Virus record (IMG/VR): IMGVR_UViG_3300025174_000776
Location: 1 to 22,721 of that record
Source of the DNA: a virus
Direction: 5' to 3' (one strand)
Length of the DNA stretch: 22,721 nt
In this document: one piece after another, positions 1,581 through 22,169 of the stretch
Position numbering within the stretch: the stretch's first letter is position 1
How the letters are laid out: the number at the start of each line of letters is the position of its first letter
The notes under the pieces: generated by a model
The model's input: only the letters and a program-made list of their open reading frames with translations
Told to the model about the DNA's origin: nothing
Databases searched by the model: none
Translations under genes and position numbers: made by a program

Positions 1581-2756
1581 GTGAAACCTACTCCTATCCT
1601 GTTTCTTGGCGACTCCCCCGACCTCCAGACCGGCCTCGGACGCATCAGCCGCGATCTGGCCGTCCGCGTATCGTCACTCCCCGAGTTTCGTGTCGGGTTC
1701 CTAGGGCGTGGCGGCTGCGGTTCCAGCCAGCTCCCTTTCCATCAATACACTTTCGATGAGCGCTGGGACTGGGGTGAGCAACACCTGGAACGGGTCTGGC
1801 GGGAATTCTCCAAAGGCGATTCTGGCATTCTCATGACGATCTGGGACCCGGTCCGCCTGCATTGGTTGGTAGACCCCCGGCCAGAGGCGTTCGATCAACA
1901 GACATTCAGTTTCCTCCGCCGCCCGCCCTTCCGCCGCTGGGGCTACTTCCCGGTCGATGCAACCGGACCCGGCGACCGCCTAACCGGCCTCGCGGTCGCT
2001 GCCGTCAGAGGCTTCAACCGCCGGTTGGCCTATACGCCCTGGGGAGCCAGTATTCTTAGCGGTTCGCTCGGCACAGAGGTAGACTGGCTGCCGCACGGAT
2101 ATGACCCTGCATCCTTCTCGCCCCGCGAGCGTGCTCCCGGTCGGATGACTCTCGGCATTCATGCGCACGACATTCTGATTGGTTGCGTCATGACCAATCA
2201 GACCCGGAAGGACTGGGGCCTCGCATTCGCCGCCGTCGCTGACCTGCGTTCCAAGATTCAGAATTTGCGTTTTTGGGTTCACGTCGATGCGATGGTCCGC
2301 GCTTGGTCGATCTATGCCCTAATCCAAGATTTCGGGCTGGCAGACGTTGTTCGAGTCACGATGTCAGAGACCAAGAACGACGTGGAGTTGAGCTATCTGT
2401 ACTCAGCTTGCGACCTGACGATCTTGCCGTCGCTCGGCGAGGGTTTCGGCTATCCGATCGTTGAGAGCTTGGCTTGCGGCGTCCCGGTTATTCACGGCGA
2501 CTACGGCGGCGGCGCTTGCCTGCTGCGCAACGACGACGACCTGCTCGTGCGCCCCGTCAGCTATCGCCTCGACGGCCCCTACAATTTGCTCCGTCCGGTG
2601 TTTGAGCCTGCCGACTGGAGCGCCTGCATTCAGAAGGTGCTGGCCGAATCGAGCTGGCGCGACCCTGAGCGTGCAGTCGGTATCGTCGAGCATCTTCAAT
2701 GGCCCCGGCTGTGGGAAGGCTGCTGGAAGAAGTGGTTTCTGGAGGGCCTGAAGTGA
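1581..2756 (+). CDS. Glycosyltransferase, GT4-like (GT-B fold)
   Basis: 391 residues, GTG 1581, 1 nt after the HNH stop. The N-terminus ILFLGDSPDLQTGLGRISRDL is a GT-B Rossmann start with the Gly loop. The C-terminal half has the retaining GT4 donor-site signature: LYSACDLTILPSLGEGFGYPIVESLACGVPVI, with the E-x7-E pair (about Glu287 and Glu295). The middle segment GIHAHDILIGCVMTNQTRKDWGL matches the start of the C-terminal Rossmann domain. It should transfer a sugar from an NDP-sugar in the cytoplasm; donor and acceptor are not predictable. It is the first gene of the glycan cassette, and length is normal for the family. Confidence 0.88.
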   Translation: MKPTPILFLGDSPDLQTGLGRISRDLAVRVSSLPEFRVGFLGRGGCGSSQLPFHQYTFDERWDWGEQHLERVWREFSKGDSGILMTIWDPVRLHWLVDPRPEAFDQQTFSFLRRPPFRRWGYFPVDATGPGDRLTGLAVAAVRGFNRRLAYTPWGASILSGSLGTEVDWLPHGYDPASFSPRERAPGRMTLGIHAHDILIGCVMTNQTRKDWGLAFAAVADLRSKIQNLRFWVHVDAMVRAWSIYALIQDFGLADVVRVTMSETKNDVELSYLYSACDLTILPSLGEGFGYPIVESLACGVPVIHGDYGGGACLLRNDDDLLVRPVSYRLDGPYNLLRPVFEPADWSACIQKVLAESSWRDPERAVGIVEHLQWPRLWEGCWKKWFLEGLK

Positions 2757-3460
2757 CCATGACAGTCTGCATGGCCTGTCCTTCCGAACCTGTTAGCGGG
2801 CCTGGAGATGATCGGTACTTTGTAACGGGAGTCGGGTCGGTGGTTGCTATGTACCAAGAGTTACTTGAGGTAGCTAAGGCCGACATTCTGGCTTACCTGC
2901 ATAACGACGTGGAGATTTACGATCCTGATTGGCCCGAGCGTGTGCTGGCCGAGTTTTCCGATCCTTCGGTCGGCCTCATCGGTTTCGGCGGCGCTTTGCG
3001 ACATGGCAGCCCCGACCTTTACCGCTCGCCCTACCGCTTGCAGAACCTCGCTCGCTACGGATACCTCTCGAATACTACAGACGCCGAACAGCACGGCCAG
3101 CGATTCACCGGCGCGTGCGACGTGGCCGTGCTTGATGGCTTCGCTCTGATTGTTCGCCGGGTGATCCTGGAGAGAGCGTGGCACCAGGACGGGATGAAGC
3201 AGTGGGCTGGGTGGCCGGTTCACAAGTTGATCTTCCATAATTACGACTACTGGCTCTGCGGTGTCGCCCGCCGTCAGGGCTATCGCATCCGCATGGTCGG
3301 CGTCTCGTGCCTGCACAAAGGCGGGCAGACTTCTACCAAGCCTGCCTACCAAGACTGGCTTCGGGAGCGCGGGTTGACCGATGAGCAGACACACGCGGAC
3401 GCTCACCGATGGCTGTGGGATGAGATGCGGGATGTGTTGCCGTGGGAGGTGAGGGCATGA
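2753..3460 (+). CDS. Glycosyltransferase, GT2-like (GT-A fold), short N-terminus
   Basis: About 235 residues from GTG 2753, which overlaps the previous stop and has GGAGGG 6 nt upstream; an earlier in-frame ATG (2699) would lie deep inside the upstream gene. ADILAYLHNDVEIYDPDW holds the DxD-like metal/nucleotide-sugar motif (NDVEI). Later segments IFHNYDYWLCGVARRQGYRIRMVGVSCLHKGG match the acceptor-side acidic motif followed by a terminal His seen in GT2-type enzymes. The usual first beta strand and VDDGS motif are not clear, so the N-terminal nucleotide-binding part looks shortened or divergent. Sugar specificity unknown. Confidence 0.75.
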   Translation: MTMTVCMACPSEPVSGPGDDRYFVTGVGSVVAMYQELLEVAKADILAYLHNDVEIYDPDWPERVLAEFSDPSVGLIGFGGALRHGSPDLYRSPYRLQNLARYGYLSNTTDAEQHGQRFTGACDVAVLDGFALIVRRVILERAWHQDGMKQWAGWPVHKLIFHNYDYWLCGVARRQGYRIRMVGVSCLHKGGQTSTKPAYQDWLRERGLTDEQTHADAHRWLWDEMRDVLPWEVRA

Positions 3461-3594
3461 GCGAACGTACTTGGTTTTGGACGGTTGTGATAATCGAGTT
3501 ATTTGCGCTCTATCTCGTTTTCACATGGTTCCTGAAGGTCGGATTCCCTTGGATCAAGGCTTTTCTGGTCGTGAACGGAGTCAAGTTGCCATGA
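3457..3594 (+). CDS. Small single-span membrane protein (45 residues)
   Basis: Reads MSERTWFWTVVIIELFALYL... and ends ...NGVKLP. The ATG (3457) overlaps the upstream stop (ATGA) and has a strong ribosome site (GGAGGTGAGG) just before it. Residues about 6-27 form one hydrophobic helix, and a second, weaker hydrophobic stretch follows around residues 30-40. No family recognised. Its place between two glycosyltransferases could mean a membrane anchor or accessory subunit, which is inference. Confidence 0.55.
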   Translation: MSERTWFWTVVIIELFALYLVFTWFLKVGFPWIKAFLVVNGVKLP

Positions 3595-3646
3595 AAGCCC
3601 CTACATGAAGGGACTGTCGGTCGTGATGAAGAACAAACTGATATGA
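3591..3646 (+). other. Two micro-ORFs (5 and 13 codons) chained by ATGA overlaps
   Basis: ATG 3591 opens a 5-codon frame ending at TGA 3606-3608. ATG 3605 opens a 13-codon frame ending at TGA 3644-3646, which overlaps ATG 3643 of the next gene. Each junction is a 4-base ATGA, as is the one joining 3591 to the membrane protein before it. The peptides are too short to be clear products; they may pass terminating ribosomes along to the 3643 gene, which has no good ribosome site of its own. They could also be chance remnants of a decayed gene. Confidence 0.35.
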
Positions 3647-3984
3647 CGAATCAAGCTGCTTACGATGTCTGCTTGGTATGCGGGGCAACAGCCCCAATGA
3701 GGTACGGTGGGGCGCTGTGTCCACACGGTCACGGACCTATGATGCACGCTGGACCTCAAAACGAGCTTGATAGACGCCAGGATCTCCTCTACCTGGATGC
3801 AGACATACGTGTGTTACGCGATCGCATTGAGGGACTAGAGCATTCGGTGCATGCTATTTGTGAAATACTCAAGCGCTTTGAGGAACTTGTCAAGCGCCTT
3901 GATGAGCTGGAGCGGTCAGTGGCTGATCTCCGCTACTATGTTGAGTTTCTGCATTGCGCTTACTTGAATAGGCGGAGTCCTTGA
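3643..3984 (+). CDS. Small protein with Cys/His knuckle and coiled coil
   Basis: 113 residues. The N-terminus CLVCGATAPMRY...LCPHGHGP has a CxxC pair, a further Cys and two His that could bind one zinc. Residues about 40-100 are heptad-like and charged (LDADIRVLRDRIEGLEHSV, LKRFEELVKRLDELERSV), strongly suggesting a coiled coil and oligomerisation. The ATG overlaps a micro-ORF stop. The coding sequence is richer in A/T than the flanking transferases, like the other small inserted genes. No family recognised. Confidence 0.6.
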   Translation: MTNQAAYDVCLVCGATAPMRYGGALCPHGHGPMMHAGPQNELDRRQDLLYLDADIRVLRDRIEGLEHSVHAICEILKRFEELVKRLDELERSVADLRYYVEFLHCAYLNRRSP

Positions 3985-4704
3985 ATGACCGTCAACATCG
4001 TCATGCTAGTCAAGGATCGCCCTCGCCTTACCGAGCAGGCGCTGTCTTCGCTCTACGCCCACACCGAGCGCGGTTCATTCAGTCTAACTGTTGTTGATGA
4101 TGGCTCACAACTCCAGACTCGGGGCGTCCTCGATCTGACGACTACCGGGCGTGATGATACTGTCATTGTCCGCTTATCTCGCTCCAAGGGCATCGTCGGG
4201 CTGGTACGCAATCTCGGCATCCGGGCGGCGGAACTGTATTGGAGCCGGGGGGATTTGCTCTACATGAGCGACAACGACGCCTACTTCACCCCCGGATGGT
4301 TGGAGAGGCTGCTGGTCGCGTGGCCCGCAGCATGCGTGGAGGGCTACAGGATTCTTGGGGGATATAACCATCCTTACCACGCCATCGAGGGTATAGAGGT
4401 GGGCCGACCCGCGCCCGTTACCCCTTATCCGCACGGCGAGATCCGCGAATACTACACGGTCGGCGGGCTGAGTTGGTTGATGGAGTGGCAGACGTGGGAC
4501 AGGTTCGGGATGCTGGATGCCAAAGTTGTGGGGGTGGCCAAGTCGGAAGACTGGGAGTACACACAGAGGATCAGAGGGGCAGGATTCAAGGTGGGTGCGG
4601 TGCATCCACATGTGGTGCATAACGCAGGGTTGACCAGTAGCTTTGGGGAGAAAGCAGTGGGGCATGAGGCGATGGCGAGAGTGGCGGGAGTGGTGATGGA
4701 GTGA
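3985..4704 (+). CDS. Glycosyltransferase family 2-like
   Basis: 239 residues; ATG directly follows the previous stop. GT-A features run in order: N-terminal NIVMLVKDRPRLTEQALSSL, VVDDGS (residues about 37-42, nucleotide binding), LVRNLGIRAA, DLLYMSDNDAYFTPGWL with the DxD-type SDNDAYF, and SEDWEYTQRIRGAGFKVG as the C-terminal ED acceptor/base motif, then a final HNAG. This is a complete catalytic domain of ordinary size. It should act in the cytoplasm on an NDP-sugar; no membrane span is present. Confidence 0.88.
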   Translation: MTVNIVMLVKDRPRLTEQALSSLYAHTERGSFSLTVVDDGSQLQTRGVLDLTTTGRDDTVIVRLSRSKGIVGLVRNLGIRAAELYWSRGDLLYMSDNDAYFTPGWLERLLVAWPAACVEGYRILGGYNHPYHAIEGIEVGRPAPVTPYPHGEIREYYTVGGLSWLMEWQTWDRFGMLDAKVVGVAKSEDWEYTQRIRGAGFKVGAVHPHVVHNAGLTSSFGEKAVGHEAMARVAGVVME

Positions 4705-4941
4705 ATGATGATATACCGAGATAGGGACATTTACGTGAATCTGGATGAGGTGGTGGCGATACAGGATAGCGAAGGTTCACGAGGCGGGATAGTAGTCCTA
4801 AAGAACGGCATGACGCTGAAACTAACGTCATATCAGATCGATGCCATTCTCATGGCGCTGGAGCGTGCCGAGAAGCACGCTATGGGCGTAGGTCTAGGAC
4901 TTCAGTTGATGCCTGAGGCGATTCAAGCGAACAAGTCATGA
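4705..4941 (+). CDS. Small beta-rich protein of unknown function
   Basis: 78 residues; ATG 4705 follows the preceding stop directly (ATG 4708 is an alternative) with GGAG upstream. DIYVNLDEVVAIQDSE and GGIVVLKNGMTLKLTSYQIDAIL alternate hydrophobic residues as in a small beta barrel or sheet, then a C-terminal helix (ILMALERAEKHA). The pattern recalls small FlbD- or LytTR-like sheets but I do not claim homology. It ends by overlapping the next gene (ATGA 4938-4941). A small accessory ORF inside the glycan cassette. Confidence 0.55.
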   Translation: MMIYRDRDIYVNLDEVVAIQDSEGSRGGIVVLKNGMTLKLTSYQIDAILMALERAEKHAMGVGLGLQLMPEAIQANKS

Positions 4942-5882
4942 ACATTCTCTACGTAGCTAACGAGTGGGACTACGGCGATCCGACCGCCGGGCGCAGCTTC
5001 GAGCACTACAACTTCTACGATTCCCTGCGGCAGATGGGACACAGGATCATCTACTTCGACTACTTCCAGAACTCTCGCCGACAAGGGAACGAGGCGATGA
5101 ACCGCGATCTGGAACAGCTTGTCAAAGACGAACGACCCGATTTGCTGTTCGCCTGTTTCATGTACGACGAGGTCAGCCGCGAGACCATGCGGCGGATTTC
5201 CGACAGCGGCCTCACCACCACGCTTCATTGGTTCTGCGACGACCACTGGCGGTGGGACAGCTTCTCCTGTCAGTGGGCGCCGTGCTTCAACTGGATCGTC
5301 ACTACCGCCAGCGAGGCTCCGGCCAAGTACGCCTCCATCGGCTACACGAATGTCATCAAGAGCCAGTGGGGAGCGAACCCTATCCTCTACGAGAGGGATA
5401 GGGATTGGGAGCACTCTGTAACTTTTGTCGGACGCTCGCATGGGGATCGCCATCTCTATCTCAACGCGCTTCGAGACGCGGGCATCAATGTTCAAGTCTG
5501 GGGTCCGAATCATGGAAACGGCAGGCTCACCCAGGAGGATATGATCCGCGTTTTCGGCAGTAGCAAGATCAACCTGAACTTCGCTGAGGCTGCCCAGCCG
5601 GGCTGTCGTCAGATCAAGGGGCGGAACTTCGAGGTTCCCTCCTGCGGAGGGTTCCTCCTGACGAATGTAGCCGATAACTTGGGCGACTACTTTGAACTCG
5701 GCAAAGAGATTGGTGTGTTTGAGGGGCTAGGCGATCTAGTGGATAAGGTTCGCTACTATCTTGCCCACAGCAGCGAACGAATGGCCATCGCCCGTCGTGG
5801 CTACGAGCGCTGCCTGCGGGATCACACCTATGAGCGCCGGTTTAATGAAATCTTTCAGAGGATAGGCCTATGCGAGAGGTAG
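4938..5882 (+). CDS. Glycosyltransferase, CgeB / GT1_2-like
   Basis: 314 residues from ATG 4938 (ATGA overlap). The N-terminus MNILYVANEWDYGDPTAGRS and DYFQNSRRQGNEAMNRDL fit the first Rossmann unit, with DLLFACFMYDEV following. The C-terminal half is typical of the Glyco_trans_1_2 (CgeB-like) group: NLNFAEAAQPGCRQIKGRNFEVPSCGGFLLT, then a GKEIGVFEGLGDLVDKVRYYLAH repeat-like end with an Arg-rich helix. The E-V/PSCGGFL signature is the donor-sugar region in these GT-B enzymes. Donor and acceptor unknown. It overlaps the next gene by 13 nt. Confidence 0.85.
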   Translation: MNILYVANEWDYGDPTAGRSFEHYNFYDSLRQMGHRIIYFDYFQNSRRQGNEAMNRDLEQLVKDERPDLLFACFMYDEVSRETMRRISDSGLTTTLHWFCDDHWRWDSFSCQWAPCFNWIVTTASEAPAKYASIGYTNVIKSQWGANPILYERDRDWEHSVTFVGRSHGDRHLYLNALRDAGINVQVWGPNHGNGRLTQEDMIRVFGSSKINLNFAEAAQPGCRQIKGRNFEVPSCGGFLLTNVADNLGDYFELGKEIGVFEGLGDLVDKVRYYLAHSSERMAIARRGYERCLRDHTYERRFNEIFQRIGLCER

Positions 5883-6535
5883 CCTTAGTCGTTCCAGCCT
5901 GCTACCCGGACATCTTCGCTCAGTTCCTGTGTTCACAGCAGCAGTACGAGCCGGACACCTTCTGTCGCAAAATCCTGGTCCGCGACGGCCCGGCGATCGA
6001 ACCTCCGTCAGATTGGGCAGTGGTCGAAGGCCCGCAGCCCTACGTCATGCCTCGTAACATCAACTTGGGGCTGCTGGCGGCCGGTAGGGCTGACGTTCTA
6101 ATGGCGTCCGACGACACGCAGTTTATCACTCCAGATACGGTTAAGCGACTACAAGACGCCGCATATATGCGCTCCAAGATCGCGGTCGTTTCTCCCCGAA
6201 TTGACGGAGGCTGCGGAATCGTAGAACAGCAAGTCGTGAAAGCGGACTACCGTTACTGGGCTATTACTGCTACCAGGCTCGCTTTCATTTTGATCTACAT
6301 TCGCCGGGCGATCATCGACCTGATTGGCGGGTGGGACGAACAGTTCACCAGCTACGGGCATGACGACTTCGACTATTGCGAACGTATCCGCCGAGTAGGC
6401 TGGAACCTGCTCATAGCCGACGTAATCGTCAAACACGGTTTCCATTCGCCCTGTATGAACACCTACATGCGAAAGGGAACGGCTGATACCGCCGAAGGTG
6501 CGCGAATCTTCGCAGAAAAATGGGGGCAGCAGTGA
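5870..6535 (+). CDS. Glycosyltransferase family 2-like
   Basis: 221 residues; ATG 5870 lies inside the end of the upstream gene with AGAGGAT ahead of it. NLGLLAAGRADVLMASDDTQFITPDTV contains the DxD-like SDDTQF. GGWDEQFTSYGHDDFDYCERIRRVGWNLL is the classic C-terminal HDD/ED acceptor motif of GT2 enzymes, followed by a terminal HGFHS. The N-terminus (VALVVPACYP) is a normal first strand but the VDDGS element is replaced by LVRDGP. Soluble cytoplasmic enzyme; sugar specificity not predictable. Confidence 0.82.
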   Translation: MREVALVVPACYPDIFAQFLCSQQQYEPDTFCRKILVRDGPAIEPPSDWAVVEGPQPYVMPRNINLGLLAAGRADVLMASDDTQFITPDTVKRLQDAAYMRSKIAVVSPRIDGGCGIVEQQVVKADYRYWAITATRLAFILIYIRRAIIDLIGGWDEQFTSYGHDDFDYCERIRRVGWNLLIADVIVKHGFHSPCMNTYMRKGTADTAEGARIFAEKWGQQ

Positions 6536-7134
6536 GGGAGCGGATTGCCGACATCCTACGGACTATCCCCGATCCTACGGTGATTGAGTTAGGCGCTCAT
6601 CGGGGGAATGATACAGTCTGGTTGCGGAGTCTGTGCTCTGGAGCGCCCAAATATCTTGCCGTTGAGGCCGATCCACGCCACTATCCCTTGCTACGCCAAA
6701 TATGGGGGTTTCAGATGGTGGAGGCTGCAATCGCATCCTACACGGGCATGATTACCCTACACCTAAGCGACAACGATGTTGGTGTGGTTCCTGCTTCTAG
6801 TTCAATCCGGCAGCCGCTCTTGCATCAGGAGCACTGGCCCTGGTGCCGATTCGACCAAACTATCGAGGTACCCTGCGTTACATTAGATAAACTTGCAGGG
6901 CGGGAACTACCCATTGGCCCAATTCATCTCTTATGGGCTGACATCCAGGGAGCCGAGCGCGACATGATCGAGGGCGGTCGAAAGACCTTGGCCCGTACCC
7001 ACTGGCTCTACATGGAAGCCTATGAGTGCGAGATGTACGAGGGACAGGCCGTGCGCTCGGAACTGCTGGCCATGCTGCCGGGTTTTCAGTTGGTCATGCA
7101 GGACGCGGAGAACGTTCTGCTGGAGCACGTATGA
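6532..7134 (+). CDS. FkbM-type SAM-dependent methyltransferase
   Basis: About 200 residues from GTG 6532, which overlaps the upstream stop (GTGA); ATG 6520 is an alternative that adds four residues. VIELGAHRGNDTVWL is SAM motif I (Gly-rich loop), YLAVEADPRHYPLL the acidic ribose-binding motif II, and IHLLWADIQGAERDMIEGG the D-x-Q-G-x-E motif typical of FkbM enzymes. These usually O-methylate sugars in glycans or polyketides. The position among glycosyltransferases supports glycan methylation (inference). Full length for a minimal FkbM domain. Confidence 0.85.
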   Translation: MRERIADILRTIPDPTVIELGAHRGNDTVWLRSLCSGAPKYLAVEADPRHYPLLRQIWGFQMVEAAIASYTGMITLHLSDNDVGVVPASSSIRQPLLHQEHWPWCRFDQTIEVPCVTLDKLAGRELPIGPIHLLWADIQGAERDMIEGGRKTLARTHWLYMEAYECEMYEGQAVRSELLAMLPGFQLVMQDAENVLLEHV

Positions 7135-7361
7135 CGCAAGAATCAAAACGCATAATCGTGATTTGGGATAGGCGGAGAATATCTACATGGCAGATGGAAG
7201 CTGTTGGCAAAGCGATGAAGGAGAAGTGGGCTATCATGGCACTCCTGATACGTGCGACGGATTTAGATGGCTCACCACTTGTTGTTTACAACATTGACCA
7301 GTTGGAGCCGGGCCAGTTTGAGCAACTTAGGGAACTTGTAGGCAAAGAGGTGAGCACGTGA
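7131..7361 (+). CDS. Small hypothetical protein
   Basis: 76 residues from ATG 7131, which overlaps the FkbM stop (ATGA) and has GGAG 6 nt upstream. It begins MTQESKRIIVIWDRRRIST, then a helix (QMEAVGKAMKEKW), a beta-rich middle (LVVYNID) and an acidic C-terminal helix. No motif recognised. It is richer in A/T than the flanking enzyme genes. Likely a small accessory or cargo gene. Confidence 0.5.
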   Translation: MTQESKRIIVIWDRRRISTWQMEAVGKAMKEKWAIMALLIRATDLDGSPLVVYNIDQLEPGQFEQLRELVGKEVST

Positions 7362-7495
7362 ACTCCAAAACCATCGTTTTGATGCGTCGTTGGCTTGCTC
7401 GGAACTGTTGGCGCCGAGAATGTCCTGCTCAGAAACAGGAGTTGCGCATGAACCCCCGAACGATCTTCTGGATTCGCCGCTGGCTGATCCAAAAC
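7358..7495 (+). repeat. Short degenerate tandem duplication around two alternative starts
   Basis: The 48-nt units 7358-7405 and 7448-7495 encode related 16-residue peptides. Between them, 7396-7430 also resembles the end of the FkbM gene in two ordered blocks: GCTCGGAACTGTTGGC (compare GCTCGGAACTGCTGGC near 7050) and GCCGAGAATGTCCTGCT (compare GCGGAGAACGTTCTGCT near 7108). The joined remnant lacks the stretch between those blocks. Read together, this is a scar of local duplication followed by deletion. Confidence 0.4.
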
Positions 7496-7708
7496 CCAGA
7501 TCGGGCAATACGTATCAGTTACAATCGGCAGGCTCCTGAGGGTGCAGCACGATGGCTAGTCCAAGGAGAAGCGCAGTCTATGACGCTAATGTACTCAAGG
7601 GGCGGCTCCTTCATCGAGGCGGTTGCTCGCTTTAGCCGGGCTGCCAATACCGATTACCGGGTCGAACGGATGATGAATGTAGACGCGATGCAGCTAATAG
7701 AGGAGTAG
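7358..7708 (+). CDS. Small hypothetical protein with duplicated N-terminus (start uncertain)
   Basis: 116 residues if read from GTG 7358, which overlaps the upstream stop (GTGA); 86 residues if read from ATG 7448, which has AGGAG 6 nt upstream. The two possible N-termini are near-copies: MNSKTIVLMRRWLARN and MNPRTIFWIRRWLIQN share about 9 of 16 residues. This suggests a small tandem duplication that created a second start. The rest (ISYNRQAPEGAARWLVQGEAQSMTLMYSRGG) is a beta-rich soluble domain without a known family. Confidence 0.5.
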   Translation: MNSKTIVLMRRWLARNCWRRECPAQKQELRMNPRTIFWIRRWLIQNPDRAIRISYNRQAPEGAARWLVQGEAQSMTLMYSRGGSFIEAVARFSRAANTDYRVERMMNVDAMQLIEE

Positions 7709-8224
7709 ATGCTGAAACTCAACATCGGCAGCGGTCAGCGCCGCTTCGGGGAAAGCTGGACCAATATCGACCTCGTCTCTCGCCCGCCCGATCAGGTTCC
7801 CGACGTGCTCGCTGACGGCGCTGTCCTGCCCTTCCCGACCGGGAGCGCCGAAATCGTCTGCCTGCATCATGTCCTCGAACACTTTGGCTGCGGTGAGGGT
7901 GATGGCTTGATTCGAGAGTGTTGGCGTGTTCTCGCCCCTGGAGGCAGCCTGCTCGTGTTTGTCCCCGACCTCTGGCAACTCGCTCAGCGCTGGATTCTCG
8001 GGCAGATCAACGACTACATCTATTGCGTCAACCTGTATGGGGCCTACCAGGGGCTGGAAAGCGACAGACACCGTTGGGGTTTTCGCCGTCAAAGCCTGGC
8101 TCTTACCCTAGCAGGCGATGACTGCGTTCGTTGGGCGCAGATCAAGCCCTTTGATTGGCGGGCGATTTCGGGCATGAGCGCCGCTCGGGATTGGTGGGTA
8201 TTATCACTGGAGGCCGTGAAATGA
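7709..8224 (+). CDS. Class I SAM-dependent methyltransferase (Methyltransf_11-like)
   Basis: 171 residues, ATG 7709 right after the upstream stop, with GAGGAG ahead. Motif I is LNIGSGQRRFGESWTNID, with the acidic residue ending strand 2. LPFPTGSAEIVCLHHVLEHF is motif II/III, and ECWRVLAPGGSLLVFVPDL is the post-III strand typical of Methyltransf_11. The C-terminal WGFRRQSLALTLAGDDCVR is the usual cap. Substrate unknown; by context a glycan or glycolipid intermediate is likely (inference). Confidence 0.85.
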   Translation: MLKLNIGSGQRRFGESWTNIDLVSRPPDQVPDVLADGAVLPFPTGSAEIVCLHHVLEHFGCGEGDGLIRECWRVLAPGGSLLVFVPDLWQLAQRWILGQINDYIYCVNLYGAYQGLESDRHRWGFRRQSLALTLAGDDCVRWAQIKPFDWRAISGMSAARDWWVLSLEAVK

Positions 8225-8703
8225 CACTGACCACAACCATCAACCTAATAAACAAGCATCGCGCTTGTGTGGCGGCAGCGGCAGACACCGGTTTTGTCAG
8301 CGGTTGGTCCCTAGCGTGCATATCTGAGCGCTTCGCTAGCTTGTTATTTTTGATCGGCTTGGCCCCAGATGCGAACCCCGAGCATCTAGACAGCATCCTG
8401 GGAGGACTAACCTCCGTACAATGCAACGAGCCGATTAATTTGACAGTGATCCTCAATGCGAATGGTTTGGGGGATTGCCTTTGGGTGATGACCGTTGCAA
8501 CCCAAGAGGATGTAAGTCCAGTGTGGGTGGAGTACTACCGTGCAATAGCTCCAGCACAAGTGAAGTATGAACAAGCGAGAGCCGTAGCGTTGGCTAATCA
8601 TAAGGGCATAGACACGTGGGATGAATATAAACAAGCCCTCGCTATGGCAAAAGTTGAGTATACGCGGGGAAAGACCACAGCGTTGGCGGCAATTCTTCAG
8701 TGA
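8221..8703 (+). CDS. Hypothetical protein with C-terminal A/Y helical repeats
   Basis: 160 residues from ATG 8221, which overlaps the methyltransferase stop (ATGA) and has GGAGG about 6 nt upstream; an earlier in-frame ATG lies inside the upstream gene. The N-terminal ~100 residues show no known motif. The C-terminal part has two related helical units, YRAIAPAQVKYEQARAVALA and YKQALAMAKVEYTRGKTTALA, which look like tandem A-x-x-Y helices. A/T-richer than its neighbours. Possibly an oligomeric accessory protein. Confidence 0.5.
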   Translation: MTLTTTINLINKHRACVAAAADTGFVSGWSLACISERFASLLFLIGLAPDANPEHLDSILGGLTSVQCNEPINLTVILNANGLGDCLWVMTVATQEDVSPVWVEYYRAIAPAQVKYEQARAVALANHKGIDTWDEYKQALAMAKVEYTRGKTTALAAILQ

Positions 8704-8716
8704 AAAGAGGATGTCG

Positions 8717-9445
8717 ATGAACTGGATTCTCTGTCCTCACCGCAATAGCCTGCATCTTACTCGCCCCGCTCTTGCCAGCTTCTATGCTCAGGACATCGGC
8801 AACCTCTTCATTCTGTTGATAGACAACAGCGACGAGGGCATCAGCCGATGGCTGCCGAATGATTCCGAAGCCGATCTTGGTATCTGGCATTCCCGCCCGC
8901 CCCGATCAGTGGCTGAATCTTGGAATGCCGGGTTGCGGTGGATATTCGCACAGAGCGAAGACTACGTTTTGGTGGTGAACAATGACGTAGAGCTTCGGCC
9001 CGATACGTATAGACGACTAGTGGAAGATGGCGGGGAGTTCGTTACTGGAATCGGCGTAAGAGAGCGAGAGAAGATCGGCAGTCCGTACCTGCCTCCCGAC
9101 CCGGCCTTGAAACGCCCCCATCCCGACTTCTCTTGTTTCCTCATCCGGCGCTCTGCCTGGGACCGCGTCGGCCCATTTGATGAGAACTTCAAGATCGCCT
9201 TTTGCGAGGACTGGGATTACCACGTGCGCCTGCATCGTGCGGGCATCACCGCCTGTTCGCTCGATCTGCCATTCCTGCACCACGCCAGTCAGACTCTCAA
9301 AGCCGCTCCCGATGCTGAGGCCCATGCCATCCAAAAGCAGGCTGACCGCAACCGGGCTTACTTTCGAAAGAAGTGGGGCGTTGCAGGAGCCTCGCCTGAG
9401 TACTATGCTTTATTTGGGAACACCGCCCCGGAGGAGATAACATGA
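8717..9445 (+). CDS. Glycosyltransferase family 2-like
   Basis: 242 residues from ATG 8717, with AGAGG 6 nt upstream; ATG 8711 is possible but abuts the ribosome site. MNWILCPHRNSLHLTRPALASF and LLIDNSDEG form the first strand and nucleotide motif. VAESWNAGLRWIF precedes VLVVNNDVELRPDTYRRL, which holds the DxD-type NNDVEL. FDENFKIAFCEDWDYHVRLHRAGI is the C-terminal ED motif and LHHASQT the final His. Complete GT-A domain, last of six transferases in the window. Sugar unknown. Confidence 0.87.
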   Translation: MNWILCPHRNSLHLTRPALASFYAQDIGNLFILLIDNSDEGISRWLPNDSEADLGIWHSRPPRSVAESWNAGLRWIFAQSEDYVLVVNNDVELRPDTYRRLVEDGGEFVTGIGVREREKIGSPYLPPDPALKRPHPDFSCFLIRRSAWDRVGPFDENFKIAFCEDWDYHVRLHRAGITACSLDLPFLHHASQTLKAAPDAEAHAIQKQADRNRAYFRKKWGVAGASPEYYALFGNTAPEEIT

Positions 9446-9666
9446 CCCGTCGTTTTCTGTTGACGCTTCCGATTTTAGCGCTTCCGCGCTTTGATCGAGC
9501 ACAAGAACTCCTTCGTCAGTTCTACATCGCTCCGGGGGCGCTTTTGTCCATCAGCAACATTGAGAGAATGATGTTATACATGCAGCTACACAGGGTCGGC
9601 TTAATCGACAACTGGACGCTTCTTGAAGGTTTGGAAATCCCCAATGTGGATCGGAAGGTGACATGA
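9442..9666 (+). CDS. Free-standing fragment homologous to the portal C-terminal segment
   Basis: 74 residues; ATG 9442 overlaps the transferase stop (ATGA) with GGAGGAG 5 nt upstream. After a 14-residue hydrophobic lead (FLLTLPILAL), residues 15-69 match portal residues 528-584 of this window: both read PRFDRAQE-LRQF, IAPG-LLS-S-IER, LY-QL-R-GL-D-WTLLE-L-IPNV. I count about 41 identities in 55 aligned positions, with a 2-residue gap. The DNA differs much more than the protein, so this is not a recent copy. The reading frame is intact with its own ribosome site, so it may be expressed. Could interact with portal, or be a domesticated remnant. Confidence 0.7.
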   Translation: MTRRFLLTLPILALPRFDRAQELLRQFYIAPGALLSISNIERMMLYMQLHRVGLIDNWTLLEGLEIPNVDRKVT

Positions 9667-10268
9667 AACGCGACCTCGACAATCGCCCGGTCCCTGACAA
9701 CCCCCGCTACGACGCCTCGATGCACAAGTTCTTTCATAACGTCCCGTTGGGGGAGTTTACCGCCGCCCTTGCTCTCCAGGAGGAGCAACGGTTCCGTGAC
9801 TTGCAGACCTCCATGACCGACCCGCGCAACTCCCGTATGACGCTAGTGACGCTCTGCCGCCATCATGCCGTCACATTGACCGACCTTCAGGATGTCTGGC
9901 GGCGTCATCAGGTCAACTTGGGCCTGATGGCGATGTCCACGTTCGCTCCCAAGGTGATGGAAAACATCGCCTCCGATGCCGCCTCCTTCACCGATCTGTG
10001 CCCGACTTGCCGGGGCAAGGGCAAACTCAGCCGCAAGTCGAAGTCGCTCTGCCCGCGCTGCTCGGGTCATGGGGTCATCCAGAAGCCCGGCGACCTCGAA
10101 TCCCGCCACATAATGATGCAGGCGCTGGGGGTCACCGGCGACGCCCCCCTGGTCGCTAACTTCAACTCCTTCTCCGCCTCTTTCGGCCCCGATCAGGGCA
10201 TGGAGAAGATCATCGAGATGGTTCAGGTCAGGCCGGGCCGCCCTGCCGAGCCGGAGATTCCAACATGA
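9663..10268 (+). CDS. Candidate terminase small subunit with DnaJ-like zinc knuckles
   Basis: 201 residues, ATG 9663 (ATGA overlap) with GAAGGTGA upstream. Residues about 58-100 contain an HTH-like segment (LVTLCRHHAVTLTDLQDVWRR, FAPKVMENIASDA) of the kind seen in phage small terminases. CPTCRGKG (113-120) and CPRCSGHG (130-137) form a CxxCxGxG pair that should bind one zinc, as in DnaJ knuckles. It lies four genes ahead of the large terminase ATPase, the usual position of TerS. The TerS role is inference from position and HTH; the zinc knuckles are seen directly. Confidence 0.55.
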   Translation: MKRDLDNRPVPDNPRYDASMHKFFHNVPLGEFTAALALQEEQRFRDLQTSMTDPRNSRMTLVTLCRHHAVTLTDLQDVWRRHQVNLGLMAMSTFAPKVMENIASDAASFTDLCPTCRGKGKLSRKSKSLCPRCSGHGVIQKPGDLESRHIMMQALGVTGDAPLVANFNSFSASFGPDQGMEKIIEMVQVRPGRPAEPEIPT

Positions 10269-10803: not shown

Positions 10804-12042
10804 GTGTACTCCGACAAGATCATCCTTCGCCGCACTGAGCAGGTCGAGAGCGCAACGAAAGTCCGCCTCAAGCGACACGCCCCGTCTGAGTCGCAGGGCC
10901 GCGCTCTTGAGATTCACTCGCTGGTGACTGACAAGGGATTGAAGCGTCCGCTGACCCGCGAGGAGAGCCTGTTCTGCATCAACGAAGTGCTGTTGTCGAT
11001 GTGCGACTTCCGCTACTTCGCCGAACGCTACGCCACCATCGACATTGACCCCGAGATGGGAGGCGGCGTCGGCCCGATGACCTTCTGGGCTTCCCAGGAA
11101 ATCATGCTCAAGCTCATCGGCCAGGCGGAAGAATCCCAGTGGGACTCCTTCGACCGTGCCAAAATAGCCGACGGTATTCGGATCGCCTGTCACAAAGCTC
11201 GCCAATTGGGAGCTACGATGTTGGCCCGCGCCCTAATGCTTCACCGCGTCCTGTTTCACAAGAATACCCGTTCGCTTGCCGCCTCCGTCAGTGAGGGTAA
11301 GATCCTTGAACTCTACCGGCGCGACAAGTTAATTCTCGACAACCTTCCTTGGTTTCTTCATCCTTCTATCGGTTTTGATGTGAAGTCTCAACATCTTCAT
11401 TTTGATCGGCTCAATTCGCATATTCTTTACCAGCAGGGTCTTCAACATACTGGCATCGGGCAGGGAAGCAACTTTCCGACTGGTCATCTTACCGAATGTG
11501 CCTCCTGGGAATATCCGCTGACAATCGAGAACGATTTCTTCCCGACCTTGCCCCGGTCGATCGACACCCTCGCTTTTTTGGAAAGCGCCGCAAACGGTCG
11601 AGGCAACTGGTGGCATAGTTTTAGTGAAGCTGTCCGAGCAGGCCGCCGCGTCGATTGGATCTATAGCTTCACCCCCTGGTATATTGAGCCGAAGCGCTAT
11701 CGACGCAATCCGCCTGTTGACTGGCGACCCTTCGAAACTACCGTACTGGCTGCTCGCAAGATTGAGGATACCAGCCCAAGGCTGGTTGGTTATCGCTACA
11801 GTCCTTCACCAGAGCAAATGTATTGGTGGGAGACGACTCGAAGAGCAGCGCAGGGCGACGGCGATGGGCACGTGGGGCCAAGTTCATCTACGCTGAATAT
11901 CTTCCTTACGAATTATTGCGCCACTCCCGAGGAAAGTTTTCAGCACTCCGGCCAGGCTGCCTTCGATGCCGAGTTGATGGAGCGGCTGGACTTGAGAGCG
12001 CGCGCGGGCGTACCCTATGAATTGATACGGAGAGCATCATGA
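10804..12042 (+). CDS. terL: Terminase large subunit, ATPase half
   Basis: 412 residues from GTG 10804, directly after a stop and with GAAGGA upstream. KARQLGATM (131-139) is the terminase-type Walker A/arginine region, GHLTECASWEYP has Thr230-Glu231 at the Walker B/coupling site, and ESAANGRGNWW (from about 260) matches the ATPase coupling motif. The end YCATPEESFQHSGQAAFDAELMERL is the standard end of the ATPase domain before the nuclease linker. It powers DNA translocation into the procapsid through the portal. The nuclease half is absent here and lies in a separate downstream gene, so the large subunit is split at the linker. Stop overlaps ATG 12039. Confidence 0.85.
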   Translation: MYSDKIILRRTEQVESATKVRLKRHAPSESQGRALEIHSLVTDKGLKRPLTREESLFCINEVLLSMCDFRYFAERYATIDIDPEMGGGVGPMTFWASQEIMLKLIGQAEESQWDSFDRAKIADGIRIACHKARQLGATMLARALMLHRVLFHKNTRSLAASVSEGKILELYRRDKLILDNLPWFLHPSIGFDVKSQHLHFDRLNSHILYQQGLQHTGIGQGSNFPTGHLTECASWEYPLTIENDFFPTLPRSIDTLAFLESAANGRGNWWHSFSEAVRAGRRVDWIYSFTPWYIEPKRYRRNPPVDWRPFETTVLAARKIEDTSPRLVGYRYSPSPEQMYWWETTRRAAQGDGDGHVGPSSSTLNIFLTNYCATPEESFQHSGQAAFDAELMERLDLRARAGVPYELIRRAS

Positions 12043-12287
12043 TAAAAGGACCATATCAAATGTTGGAAGAGACGGGAGAGGCTTTTCTCAAGTCTGAGCC
12101 AAAATATGATGTTGATAGTCCAGACAGGTCCAATGTGTCAATCTCCGCCTCCGCAGGCAACCGTTTCACTGAGGCAGCCAATGAACTTGCAGCCCACTTG
12201 GATGCTGAGAAGCTGAAACATCGTCACCGTTTGGCTCGTGATGGTGAAAGGCGGGAAGATAGTCCCGCCGATGATACAGCGACGTGA
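12039..12287 (+). CDS. Small protein resembling the portal N-terminus, inside the split terminase
   Basis: 82 residues, ATG 12039 (ATGA overlap). EETGEAFLKSEPKYDV and SASAGNRFTEAANELAAHLDAEK line up with portal residues about 21-37 (QEGESFVKAQPGYNL) and 58-80 (STTSANHYAKVADDLAAYLTDIK). Identity is modest (roughly 6/17 and 8/23) but spaced as in the portal, with conserved turns. The portal continues for over 500 residues beyond this point; here the frame becomes charged and stops. Best read as a truncated portal paralogue, less certain than the 9442 fragment. Confidence 0.5.
   Translation: MIKGPYQMLEETGEAFLKSEPKYDVDSPDRSNVSISASAGNRFTEAANELAAHLDAEKLKHRHRLARDGERREDSPADDTAT
12250..12269 (+). other. 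GC-rich hairpin within the terminase insert
   Basis: GGCGGGA (12250-12256) pairs perfectly with TCCCGCC (12263-12269) around a 6-nt loop AGATAG. It lies near the 3' end of the portal-like mini-gene and about 40 nt before the next start (TTG 12312). There is no T run after it, so it is not a standard intrinsic terminator; it may slow ribosomes or RNA polymerase, or be chance. Confidence 0.35.
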
Positions 12288-12311: not shown

Positions 12312-12524
12312 TTGGATAAACAGAAGTGGCGTTGCCTGGATTGCAAACAGGAGGGTAGTACTGCAATAGATGGAGCGTTGACGGATGATCTGATACGCTG
12401 CTTGATGGTTAGCCATGCGGAACTCTCACCCAACTGTCCGGGAACAAATCTGCAATGGGTAGTTCTGGAAGGTACAGAATATCATACTCCAACAGGAGCT
12501 TACGTAACTACTGTTTGGAAATGA
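12312..12524 (+). CDS. Small Cys-rich protein between the terminase halves
   Basis: 70 residues from TTG 12312, with a strong site (GGGAGGG) 8 nt upstream. WRCLDCKQEGS has a CxxC knuckle; later Cys residues (IRCLMVSH, SPNCPG) and a His could complete one zinc site. The last codons overlap ATG 12521 of the terminase nuclease gene (ATGA), so its translation may be coupled to the nuclease. No family recognised. A/T-richer than the terminase genes on either side. Confidence 0.5.
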   Translation: MDKQKWRCLDCKQEGSTAIDGALTDDLIRCLMVSHAELSPNCPGTNLQWVVLEGTEYHTPTGAYVTTVWK

Positions 12525-13369
12525 TGCCTACACCCACCTCCTATACGATCGGAACCACTCAGACTCTCTCTCCGCTCGACGCTGGGGAAATCGACCGCGA
12601 CCCTCGCGGCATTATCTGGCTCTGGGAACCTCCGCGCCCACGCGCCTCCTACGTTATGGGCATCGACCCGACCATGGGCATCCCCAATTGGGACCGTATG
12701 CTGCGCACTCGGGATGACATTACCGTTGACAACGGGGCGATCACTGTCCTGCGAATCGGCCAGGAGCCTGAACCAGACGTGCAGGTTGCCGAGTATGCGG
12801 CCCCAATCGACCCGGAGGACCTCGGGATCGTCGCCAACGCCCTCGGGCGTCTCTACGGCGGCTCCAACGAGGATGGTCAGTGCCTTTCGATCATCGAAGT
12901 CTATCCCGGCCCTGGTCTCCAGACTCTGCGTAAGATGATTACGCTCGGCTACACCAACCAATATGTCTGGACCTATCTCGATGCCTTGGTCCCACATCCG
13001 AGCCGTACTGGAGCTTTGGGCTGGACCGCTACCGCCAAGTCGGTCACTCACCTATGGGTACGCGGGGCCAAGTTCATACATCGTGACCGCGTTACGATCA
13101 ACAGCCCGTGGCTGATTGAGGAGATGCGCAGCGCCGAGATGGATCCCGTGAAGATGTCGGCCAAGGCCGCCTACGGCGCCCACGATGACCGCCTGCGGGC
13201 GCTCCTATTGACCCTATGGGCTGGCCACCACTGGACGATGGAAGTAGAGACCGAGCGGGAGCCGGTCCTTGCGGGCGAGAAGGTGCCCTCGTGGCAGGCC
13301 AGCGACATCTCAGCCGCTAAAATGTGGGATGAGTGGGAGGAGCGGTTTTCGGAACTGACGGAGGGCTAA
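12521..13369 (+). CDS. terL: Terminase large subunit, nuclease half
   Basis: About 282 residues from ATG 12521, chosen because it overlaps the previous stop (ATGA); ATG 12524 follows directly. IWLWEPPRPRASYVMGIDPTMG is the entry to the RNase H-like nuclease, with Asp49 as the first metal ligand. IIEVYPGPGLQTLRKM fits the second motif (Glu), and YGAHDDRLRALLLTLW carries the final Asp pair (about Asp222-Asp223). This domain cuts the packaged concatemer. Together with the 10804 gene it makes a complete TerL of about 690 residues, but the two parts are encoded separately and must associate if functional. Confidence 0.85.
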   Translation: MMPTPTSYTIGTTQTLSPLDAGEIDRDPRGIIWLWEPPRPRASYVMGIDPTMGIPNWDRMLRTRDDITVDNGAITVLRIGQEPEPDVQVAEYAAPIDPEDLGIVANALGRLYGGSNEDGQCLSIIEVYPGPGLQTLRKMITLGYTNQYVWTYLDALVPHPSRTGALGWTATAKSVTHLWVRGAKFIHRDRVTINSPWLIEEMRSAEMDPVKMSAKAAYGAHDDRLRALLLTLWAGHHWTMEVETEREPVLAGEKVPSWQASDISAAKMWDEWEERFSELTEG

Positions 13370-13833: not shown

Positions 13834-14253
13834 ATGAAGCGGAGAACACTTGTTGTGATGTTGCCAGCACTGGCGACAGCAAATCTAGCCTCTATCGTAG
13901 ATCTATGGGGTTCAGATTGTATTCCGCAGGATTTATTGTGCGACTGGCCTGAGCCAGTGTTCGTCTATAGGGGGATGCCGGTTAGTTGGACAGGATGGAA
14001 AGGCGCATCAACTTCTCGCCACATTTGTGGACAATGGACCGCATTGGAACGATTACCGAATGGCAGAGTCGGACGGTGTTTCTACGTCAATACGCCTGGA
14101 ACTGGAGAGGGTCCGTATCGGCCAGGGGATGAGTTCTATATCGGTGGTTGGACACTTGAAGATGAAGAGGGAATGTTCAAGAAAAAATACCGTTTGCAAC
14201 TGATTGAACAGGGTCGTCAACGTATGATCGCACTACTGGATCAGTACCTGTAG
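13834..14253 (+). CDS. Hypothetical protein with hydrophobic N-terminus
   Basis: 139 residues from ATG 13834, with GGAGG 8 nt upstream; an in-frame ATG at 13666 lies deep inside the upstream gene and is not used. The N-terminus MKRRTLVVMLPALATANLASIV could be a weak signal peptide. The rest is Trp/Gly/Tyr-rich (FVYRGMPVSWTGWKG, YIGGWTLEDEE) and looks beta-rich and globular. It uses A/T-rich codons unlike its neighbours, suggesting an inserted cargo gene. No family recognised. Confidence 0.5.
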   Translation: MKRRTLVVMLPALATANLASIVDLWGSDCIPQDLLCDWPEPVFVYRGMPVSWTGWKGASTSRHICGQWTALERLPNGRVGRCFYVNTPGTGEGPYRPGDEFYIGGWTLEDEEGMFKKKYRLQLIEQGRQRMIALLDQYL

Positions 14254-14676: not shown

Positions 14677-16569
14677 TTGGCTGACCAGATTCCAACCTCC
14701 GACCGTGACAGCCAAGTCCACGGATGGATACGGGAAGCTATTCAGGAGGGGGAATCCTTCGTCAAAGCTCAGCCCGGCTACAACCTGATCGCCAAGTCCA
14801 TCGAGGCTGTCGGCCAGACCCGCGAAGACATCCGCCCCGGAAACCTCTCGACTACCTCGGCCAACCATTACGCCAAGGTCGCCGACGACCTCGCTGCCTA
14901 TCTGACCGACATCAAGCCTTTCTGGGAATACCGTACCCAGAACAAGCGCTACGAGAAGCAATCTGAAATCTTCGGCAAGCGCGCAACCCACTGGTACCTT
15001 CAGCGCCAGATCGACTTGCGCTTGCTGGAGGTTGTCAAGTATTGGTTAGTAGCGGGCACCGGATTTCCGCATGTGTTCTGGAACCCCGAGATAGGCGACA
15101 CCGATGTTCGCGCCTTGGACCCTCGGGATGTTCTCCCCATTCGGCCCTCCTCGAACCTGACGTTGCAGGACGCTTTCGGAGCCGTCATCCGCGAGGAGCG
15201 GACAGTCAACTCGCTGCGCCGTCGGTGGCCTCAGTTCGCCTCCCAGATTCATCCTGACCGTGACGGCTCGACTTCCTCCCGGCAGGATGCTCAATCCCGC
15301 GCCGCCCAAATTTATGAGGCTGTTTCCCCATTCTGGGACCGCATCCGAGGCAAGGCAGCGCGGGAAATCCCTCGCATCCCCACCGCCGATCATTACACGG
15401 TCTATCTCCGGGACGATTCCCGTAATGAGAACAGCTACCCCGTGCAGATGGGCGAATTCGATCAGGCTGGCCGCCCGCTGACGAACTGGTCCTACATCGT
15501 CCAGCCGGATGAGCCGCTCTATCCGCGTGGGCGCTGCATCACTGCCACCAACACGGTCATCTTGCATGATGGTCCGAACAGGTATTGGCACGGCTTGATC
15601 CCGCTGCCTAAGTTCACCTTGAACCCCTGGCCGTGGTCATGGCTCGGCAAAGCGCCCTTGTGGGACCTGTTACCGCTTCAGAAATCTCTCAACAGCCTGC
15701 TGAGGGTGGTCGATGACCATAACGAGAGAGTAGCGCGTCCTGGCCTGATCGCCGACAAGAACTCGATCAGCAAGTCGGAGTTGAACTCGATCGACACCCG
15801 CCGGGCCGGTCTGCGCATCCGCCACAATCCTACCGCCGGAAAAGGCGTGGTCTTGGCGCTCGAACCGCCGCTCGACCCGACGATCGAGAAGACAATCCAG
15901 TTCCTCATCAACGAAATGGACACCCTGAGCGGCGTTCGGGATCTCGGGCACCTCTCGCGGCTCAACCAACTCCCCTCCGGTGACACCATTGAGCGGCTGG
16001 TAGAGGCCATGACGCCCAAAATCCGCCTGTGGAGCCGGATGATGGAGTCCTTCGTCCGCGAGTTTGCGATGATGTTGGCCTATAACTTCGCCCAATTCGA
16101 CACGCTGCCGATCCGGCTGCACCTTCTAGGGGAAGATGGCGTTACGCCGGAGGACTTCGACTTCGATCCGGGCAGCTTGATTCCAGACTATGTCCACGCT
16201 TCTGACTTTGACAATCGCGGGGTAGCGACCGCCGAGGCGCTGGCCCGAGGGCCGATGCCTCGCTTCGACCGGGCGCAAGAGTTTCTGCGCCAGTTCACAT
16301 TCCATATCGCTCCGGGATCGCTGCTGTCGGCCAGCGAAATCGAACGGAAGTTGTTGTATCTGCAGTTGGCGCGGGCTGGTCTGGTGGACCCCTGGACGCT
16401 TCTTGAGGTCTTAGGCATCCCCAATGTAGGCAATCCCCCGTCAGGGGCCAACAGCATCACTGAGCGCTTACAGGCCGCTCAATCGCTCGGCATCGGGATG
16501 CAGGTCAATCCGGCGGGGCGCAAAGCCAGCGGGCAGGAGATGCCCAGAATGGTGATGAAAGAGAGCTAG
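14677..16569 (+). CDS. Portal protein
   Basis: 630 residues from TTG 14677, with GGAAGG upstream. The N-terminus is helical (EGESFVKAQPGYNLIAKSIE, then DDLAAYLTDIKPFWEYRTQN). The core has WLVAGTGFPHVFWNPEIGDTDVRALDPRDVLP, LIPLPKFTLNPWPWSWLGKAPLWDLLPLQKSLN, and LPSGDTIERLVEAMTPKIRLWSRMMESFVREFAMMLAYNFAQF, the wing/stem and clip features of tailed-phage portals. Twelve copies form the DNA gate and docking ring at one capsid vertex, where TerL binds. Residues 528-584 are duplicated as the 9442 mini-gene. No separate capsid or protease gene follows it. Confidence 0.85.
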   Translation: MADQIPTSDRDSQVHGWIREAIQEGESFVKAQPGYNLIAKSIEAVGQTREDIRPGNLSTTSANHYAKVADDLAAYLTDIKPFWEYRTQNKRYEKQSEIFGKRATHWYLQRQIDLRLLEVVKYWLVAGTGFPHVFWNPEIGDTDVRALDPRDVLPIRPSSNLTLQDAFGAVIREERTVNSLRRRWPQFASQIHPDRDGSTSSRQDAQSRAAQIYEAVSPFWDRIRGKAAREIPRIPTADHYTVYLRDDSRNENSYPVQMGEFDQAGRPLTNWSYIVQPDEPLYPRGRCITATNTVILHDGPNRYWHGLIPLPKFTLNPWPWSWLGKAPLWDLLPLQKSLNSLLRVVDDHNERVARPGLIADKNSISKSELNSIDTRRAGLRIRHNPTAGKGVVLALEPPLDPTIEKTIQFLINEMDTLSGVRDLGHLSRLNQLPSGDTIERLVEAMTPKIRLWSRMMESFVREFAMMLAYNFAQFDTLPIRLHLLGEDGVTPEDFDFDPGSLIPDYVHASDFDNRGVATAEALARGPMPRFDRAQEFLRQFTFHIAPGSLLSASEIERKLLYLQLARAGLVDPWTLLEVLGIPNVGNPPSGANSITERLQAAQSLGIGMQVNPAGRKASGQEMPRMVMKES

Positions 16570-17324: not shown

Positions 17325-17671
17325 TGCCCGTCTCGAACACTCCCTGGGCAGGCACGCTTACCCTGACTACGGCTAATACGCCTTATCAGTTGTCGCAACT
17401 ACTTAGTGACGTCCCCGCAGCCCGTCGTCCGATTATGGGCAACCCCCCACGCGCTCAGTTCGTCGCTATCCAAGCCAACCCCGATGCTGGCGGCGCTCGT
17501 TTCTACATCGGCAATCCTGACTTGAGTACAACCAACTACGGCGCGCTGATCTACGCCACGCAGGTCTGGCCGATTTATTCGATGGACGTGAACCTCATCC
17601 GGCTAGACCACATCTACTTGGCTTGCGACACTAACGCCGAAACGGTGAATGTCCTCTTTATAACACGATGA
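17324..17671 (+). CDS. Small beta-rich virion-like protein, paralogous to 16583
   Basis: About 115 residues from ATG 17324 (shares one base with the upstream stop), GGAGAAGG just upstream. IGNPDLSTTNYGALIYATQ and LIRLDHIYLACDTNAETVNVLFIT line up with VKIGGSGVSATDYGAIVTAG and NLDEFYFLGTDTQKIHLLAIT in the 16583 protein, so the two are likely paralogous beta-sandwich proteins. Probable virion accessory or decoration protein (inference). Confidence 0.55.
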   Translation: MPVSNTPWAGTLTLTTANTPYQLSQLLSDVPAARRPIMGNPPRAQFVAIQANPDAGGARFYIGNPDLSTTNYGALIYATQVWPIYSMDVNLIRLDHIYLACDTNAETVNVLFITR

Positions 17672-21720: not shown

Positions 21721-21813
21721 ATGAAAGGTGTCGGCTCAAGAGAGTTGTGTTTGCAATTCGCAGAAAGTAGGATGGCGATGAAACGGATTCTATCGGCTAG
21801 TGGGAGGGATTGA
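21721..21813 (+). other. Possible 30-codon ORF in the gap
   Basis: ATG 21721 to TGA 21811-21813 gives MKGVGSRELCLQFAESRMAM... and ends ...SASGRD, 30 residues. GAAGGA 5 nt upstream overlaps the hairpin arm. Too short and featureless for a firm call; otherwise this stretch holds only the hairpin. Confidence 0.2.
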
Positions 21814-21815
21814 AC

Positions 21816-22169
21816 ATGGCAACCTACGGGATTCTATACAACCACCAAGACCTGACGGCAATCGCCGCCAACGTACAAACGAGCCTGACTGATGCGCGGC
21901 TTACAAATCAAGAGCGTCAGGTTGCCAACCGTCATTGGAACGCGGGCCTGAATGCCTGGTCCACCGCCCCGGTTGCTCCTTTGGAATGGCAGTCGGGCGA
22001 TCCCGACACACGGGTCGTAGTAGTCAGCCACCCGCAAGTTAATATTCAACAGCTCATTGATCTCTTGCGGGCTGTGGGGACGCGCATCCCCGGTGCTTCC
22101 TACATGTTGGCGATTGCGGACGATATTGCAAGACCGAGTGGAGGTCAGCAACCGTGGCCACCGGCATGA
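21816..22169 (+). CDS. Small hypothetical protein
   Basis: 117 residues from ATG 21816 with GGGAGGG about 8 nt upstream (TTG 21810 is a less likely start). An N-terminal helix-rich part (DLTAIAANVQTSLTDARLTNQERQVANRHWNAGL) is followed by a beta/alpha segment (TRVVVVSHPQVNIQQLIDLLRAVG). No known motif. Stop overlaps the next ATG. Confidence 0.5.
   Translation: MATYGILYNHQDLTAIAANVQTSLTDARLTNQERQVANRHWNAGLNAWSTAPVAPLEWQSGDPDTRVVVVSHPQVNIQQLIDLLRAVGTRIPGASYMLAIADDIARPSGGQQPWPPA

Follow-up and report, generated by a model that had tools for sequence, protein, structure and literature searches.

Podovirus portals, typified by SU10_portal (PF23899) and by the portals of SU10, N4, T7 and P22, have a full architecture of clip, stem, wing and crown over about 600 aa. 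In the T7 portal, a hinge leads from the last strand of the wing into the crown (PMC6702177). Bacterial immunity also reads portal and capsid proteins: portal, terminase and capsid proteins trigger Avs, CapRel and Lit (PMC11087589), the portal being sensed by Avs and the MCP by CapRel and Lit. The portal also triggers SpbK, which has been modelled on the clip and not on the crown (PMC12847820). Proteins with Tat signals, represented by the profile TIGR01409, begin with an N-terminal twin arginine (RR) followed by a hydrophobic stretch. Tunturi_1 and Tunturi_2, podoviruses of Acidobacteriota (PMC11924767), encode ORF97 (XJP11587.1), a hypothetical protein in which a leader precedes an MCP N-terminus with 40% identity over 52 aa to the phage's own MCP (E=8e-8), and whose gene sits upstream of the terminase gene. 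In the open-access papers searched, a set that lacks most subscription journals, nothing was found on portal fragments or on genes that join a leader to a capsid fragment.

The gene considered here lies in a 22.7-kb IMG/VR record of a virus of soil bacteria, the whole of which was analysed and is referred to as the window. A fuller genome of the same phage is IMGVR_UViG_3300002485_000002 (61.7 kb), which is close to complete because it carries a 73-base direct terminal repeat, and further near-identical records exist in IMG/VR. Relatives of its portal occur at about 80 loci, one of them in an Acidobacteriota MAG, and its nearest cultured relatives are the Tunturiibacter phages Tunturi_1 and 2, at 23% portal identity. 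The features that bear on the gene and its parent are as follows.

9430..9436, + strand: ribosome-binding site GGAGGAG of the mini-gene, seen in the sequence, with 5-base spacing to the ATG
9442..9666, + strand: mini-gene of 74 aa, with ATG at 9442, stop at 9664-9666 and an open frame
9442..9480, + strand: leader MTRRFLLTLPILA, RR then a hydrophobic stretch, without portal homology
9481..9648, + strand: portal-derived passenger, equated by analogy with the end of the wing (last strand), the hinge and the start of the crown (first helices)
9663..10268, + strand: putative small-terminase-like gene that follows the mini-gene directly, so named from its position and a DnaJ-type zinc motif
14677..16569, + strand: full portal gene of 630 aa, the parent family (PHROG 156 and SU10_portal matches; Foldseek to SU10/N4/T7 portals)
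16255..16428, + strand: portal codons 527-584, which the mini-gene copies (BLASTP)

Residues 14-69 of the mini-gene product align with portal residues 527-584 over 58 wing and crown columns, 41 of which are identical (71%; BLASTP, E=2e-24), where the original prediction had counted about 41 of 55, and two residues (TF) are deleted in the mini-gene relative to the portal. A crown HMM scores the product at 75.0 bits, a value that 5000 shuffles approach no nearer than 8.8. The two genes share 68% of their DNA, or 71, 88 and 45% at the three codon positions, and use the same codon at 17 of the 41 residues that they have in common, bearing out the earlier claim that the DNA is much more diverged than the protein. 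An ATGA overlap joins the start of the mini-gene to the stop of an upstream glycosyltransferase gene, and a second joins its stop to the start of the downstream gene. The coordinates, the intact frame, the translational coupling and the strong ribosome site of the original prediction are thereby confirmed, and its view that a portal sub-domain has been kept outside the portal is supported; the RR leader and a second ORF of the same build at 13834-14253 had not been part of it.

The model of the full portal, which resembles the SU10, N4, P22 and T7 portals by Foldseek, places a helix at residues 529-538, a strand at 540-544 and further helices at 552-566 and 572-579. Named by analogy with the T7 portal (PMC6702177), the mini-gene would run from the last strand of the wing through the hinge into the first helices of the crown. 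In contrast to podovirus portals, it has no clip, no stem and nearly nothing of the wing, and the last 46 portal residues are also absent; its product cannot form a portal. When the mini-gene product was modelled alone, its crown helices reached a pLDDT of 93-95 and its leader 54, and a structure search with this model returned no significant match. Searches of Pfam and PHROG with the mini-gene alone give no portal family match; there is no Pfam domain in the mini-gene and no Rfam match in the window. The full portal architecture is thus missing from a gene whose descent from portals is evident from the alignment and from a codon tree. A remnant of a mobile intron or homing endonuclease was considered and rejected, as Pfam and Rfam reveal neither an endonuclease domain nor an intron structure.

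The N-terminal 13-14 residues of the product (MTRRFLLTLPILAL) consist of a twin arginine and a hydrophobic run and are not portal-derived. This beginning resembles that of Tat signal proteins, from which it differs in being short (about 10 hydrophobic residues, with a 10-residue peak hydropathy of 2.58), in having no AxA site and in going unmatched by TIGR01409 up to E=5; nor did that profile match elsewhere in the record of this phage. The curated cut-off of TIGR01409 (16.7) is passed at the related loci L076, L078 and L105. A match of the leader to phrog_8697 (E=0.008) was uninformative. The leader mini-genes compared here also depart from Tat signal proteins in their passengers, which are fragments of virion proteins and not exported enzymes. 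L076 carries three consecutive small ORFs upstream of its portal, each with a Tat-like leader and a different piece of MCP. In L078, the leader LTSRRSFLKLGGIAAAVTIVGLPALAEA precedes the N-terminus of the phage's own MCP (60% over 42 aa, E=1e-14), and this gene lies directly upstream of a small-terminase-like gene, the same place as that of the window mini-gene. Tunturi_1/2 ORF97 shares with the window mini-gene the joining of a leader to a fragment of an own head protein and differs in taking that fragment from the MCP N-terminus. At L026 and L028, a leader is combined with the MCP C-terminal motif WTGWKPAQGNSVYVGQWLAA, and the L026 leader ORF (L026:2881-3294) has homologs at L022:2365-2838 and in the window itself.

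13834..14253, + strand: second leader mini-gene of the window, with a MKRRTLVVMLPALA leader and an MCP C-terminal motif (WTGWK..GQW), recognized from homologs and a profile
13987..14043, + strand: MCP-like motif WTGWKGASTSRHICGQWTA within that ORF, where the phage's own MCP has FTGWKPSQGNTKVAGQVLAA

A profile of the L026, L022 and window ORFs matches MCP residues 321-344 (E=3e-5, probability 73%). L073 and L105 have in common a leader ORF with a motif that looks similar by eye and is not significant by HMM. A small ORF at L075:229-633 contains a 19-residue match (58%) to MCP residues 215-233 (E=0.002); it may be one more fragment gene and has no clear leader. Tunturi_3, a different Acidobacteriota phage, has no ORF joining a leader to a fragment of its own MCP or portal. 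It does encode (L133/L130, PP885686.1, 42137-42649, - strand) a protein with a Tat-like leader, MNRRQLFKGAAALVAATVLPLPALAEA, and no such fragment.

The association was counted with a leader rule asking for RR within the first 11 residues and a subsequent 10-residue hydropathy of at least 1.9, in ORFs of 45-170 aa with a ribosome-binding site, a rule devised after L076 and the window gene had been seen. Among 3686 small ORFs with such a site, 36 satisfy the rule, the window mini-gene with the weakest leader of its class. A virion-protein match (E<0.01) is found in 7 of these 36, as against 54 of the 3650 ORFs without a leader, the seven being the six tabulated genes and the third L076 ORF (8968-9246, tabulated under a later start), and three of them coming from one phage, or nearly so. 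Most of the 54 leaderless matches belong to real genes that were given a wrong start or cut at a contig edge; Fisher's test gives p=1.4e-6 with all such artefacts counted and 6e-13 after their removal by hand. In a sample of 150 random small ORFs, members of whole families and truncated genes aside, the sole ORF to score as a virion fragment was an L076 leader ORF. Leader and virion fragment are associated across phages. The window mini-gene, whose passenger is homologous to the portal, a virion protein of its own lineage, probably belongs to this class of leader and virion fragment, which appears from sequence comparison to recur in this lineage of Acidobacteriota podoviruses, cultured isolates included.

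Portal fragments are scarcer. HMM searches of all ORFs from 69 loci and 32 whole records detected no second strong portal fragment, and the roughly 80 related loci hold no second strongly matching portal mini-gene; by these searches, the portal type is unique to one phage species. Conserved occurrence, which had been proposed as a sign of function, is accordingly lacking for portal mini-genes and present for the wider class. A wider phage collection yielded no homolog for the mini-gene or for those in L076 and L078, and one record has a weak portal match that contains a stop. Within the 61.7-kb genome, the only small ORFs that are fragment paralogs of large ones are the mini-gene and, weakly, an ORF between the two terminase genes. 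Two lesser matches to the portal are listed here.

12039..12287, + strand: tentative echo of the portal N-terminus, no leader (BLAST pairwise, E=3e-5)
L072, 482-661, - strand: ORF of 59 aa that carries a helix motif of the portal crown (VLQMYRMGMIDSWTLYEAL) and has an acidic tail (HMM)

The first, weakly similar to the start of the portal protein (GEAFLKSEPKY...NRFTEAANELAAHL), scores 12.1 bits against an N-terminal HMM, a value reached by 0 of 5000 shuffles, with E=0.29 among all ORFs; it can be called a second portal echo only tentatively. The L072 ORF bears a 24-residue crown motif (E=2e-4, 0 of 5000 shuffles), has no leader and is located near the small-terminase-like gene of its locus, adjoining a diverged tandem copy of itself that is interrupted by a stop.

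Several other features of the window and its relatives were observed. The large terminase is split in the window (10804-12042 and 12521-13369), as it is in most relatives, where the halves overlap or are separated by a gap of up to 3.4 kb with small genes or homing endonucleases in it; in L033, L068, L074, L075, L077 and L078 the gene is a single frame. In one such gap, a small ORF (L050:4597-4812) ends in 17 residues that share 94% identity with the C-terminal end of the first-half terminase of L054, as if an old gene end had been displaced by an insertion. A LAGLIDADG endonuclease ORF (57263-57856) breaks up the MCP gene of this phage (L091-L094; reverse-complement 57050-58830 of the 61.7-kb record), and the insertion is probably a mobile intron; L050, L052 and L073 have similar short first MCP pieces. 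At 17668-20934, the window encodes a large fibre-like protein that starts with a Sec-like signal peptide (MMRLILLFVCLTTSLLAQA), as does its L012 counterpart (12072). Positions 1581-9445, just upstream of the packaging genes, hold a series of at least six genes for glycosyltransferases and methyltransferases, with small low-GC ORFs between them, and 21810-22528 holds two adjacent paralogous ORFs (32% identical), a relation seen weakly also for 16583/17309.

The best explanation of the mini-gene, to which a probability of about 0.45 is given, is that part of the phage's own portal gene was duplicated long ago, that the copy stands behind a short leader of RR and hydrophobic residues, and that the product, one of a recurrent class, acts as a mimic. 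The fragment would mimic a portal or capsid surface and bind whatever normally reads that surface, and the leader, if functional, would take the mimic and its partner to the cell envelope; that partner might be a sensor with which host immunity recognizes virion proteins, or else a scaffold or ejection partner. The leader may target the product to the envelope; the role of the fragment as mimic or bait is put forward tentatively. Since the Tat system translocates proteins in the folded state, and complexes as well, a bait could take whatever it has bound along with it. An immune sensor is plausible as that partner because portal and capsid proteins trigger Avs, CapRel, Lit and SpbK, and the class draws its fragments from the same two proteins, the likeness being one of logic only. 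The SpbK example is not a direct fit, since SpbK is modelled on the clip and the mini-gene is crown. It is unlikely, as a joint claim, that leader-tagged baits catch cytoplasmic immune sensors that read portal or capsid proteins and deliver these to the envelope or periplasm, the window mini-gene being a bait of portal type and ORF 13834-14253 and Tunturi_1 ORF97 baits of capsid type.

That the mini-gene is instead a relic without function, a leftover of duplication or illegitimate recombination in a region where many small genes have been inserted, and has merely not been broken yet, is somewhat unlikely. In favour of this view, the portal mini-gene is seen in one phage only, and its neighbourhood is full of non-conserved small ORFs. 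A neutral model also fits, with 0.49 substitutions per codon on the mini-gene branch and 3.75% of changes creating stops, under which an intact 74-codon frame would arise by luck with a chance of about 0.26. The frame is open, and not broken as in a pseudogene, in all records, these being near-identical; the same ORF sequence in two other IMG/VR records of this phage is uninformative on selection because those records match the window almost exactly across 14-20 kb. Against a relic stand the ATGA coupling on both sides, the strong ribosome site, a deletion that is in-frame only, and the recurrence of virion-fragment mini-genes with leaders in other phages. Relative to the portal, dN is 0.19-0.20 and dS is saturated; on the best topology, omega is 0.09 on the mini-gene branch against a background of 0.04, and omega=1 on that branch is rejected (LRT 4.44, p=0.035), whereas on one disfavoured topology it is not (LRT 1.66), in a test of 55 codons with saturated dS in which synonymous change can shift to the portal branch. 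Purifying selection on the window mini-gene is likely but weakly shown. The domestication raised in the original prediction is supported in kind, and the dN/dS comparison proposed there leans modestly towards constraint, at a significance of p=0.035 that depends on topology.

The main functional rival to the mimic is a role in assembly, according to which the product would act as an incomplete portal subunit, perhaps anchored in the membrane, and would promote or restrain formation of the portal ring or connect that ring with scaffold or ejection proteins. The fragment spans the wing/crown hinge, which in T7 moves with the valve (PMC6702177), and the P22 crown contacts scaffold and ejection proteins (PMC13386823); the crown helices of the isolated fragment are predicted with confidence, and the gene lies within the packaging cluster. 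Such a role is nonetheless improbable, given that two residues are gone from the strand before the hinge, that an RR leader would put the passenger outside the cytoplasm, and that the class also carries MCP pieces, which a portal-only role leaves unexplained.

The origin of the fragment can be read from the portals themselves. The mini-gene core is 75% identical to the portal of its own phage and at most 67% identical to other portals, and in a codon model its placement as sister of the own portal (lnL -1648.6, where two alternatives score -1661.9 and -1663.2) is favoured by 13-15 log units among the sampled portals. Residues F, Q, S and R are common to the mini-gene and its own portal. Ten other residues of the mini-gene are absent at their positions from 44 distinct related portals, and its two-residue deletion is seen in none of the 44, which argues that the gene has long evolved separately. 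As far as the sampled portals tell, the mini-gene is a partial paralog that arose within this lineage long ago, and not a recent graft. The alternative that it was taken from the portal of a related phage as a footprint of superinfection, the recombination raised in the original prediction, would account for the large DNA divergence and the lower GC3 (0.59 vs 0.75) and is very unlikely in view of the sister placement, of the low GC3 common to other small genes of this phage and of the failure of IMG/VR searches with the mini-gene and with a crown alignment to find a donor.

Fragmentary copies of virion genes tend to be written off as debris. Here they recur in one architecture across a phage lineage, and the broader class of leader and virion fragment is the more interesting finding. 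The cultured Tunturi_1 makes this class directly testable at the bench. Because several bacterial immune systems sense portal and capsid proteins, the class suggests a decoy route, or else a new envelope-linked step in head assembly.
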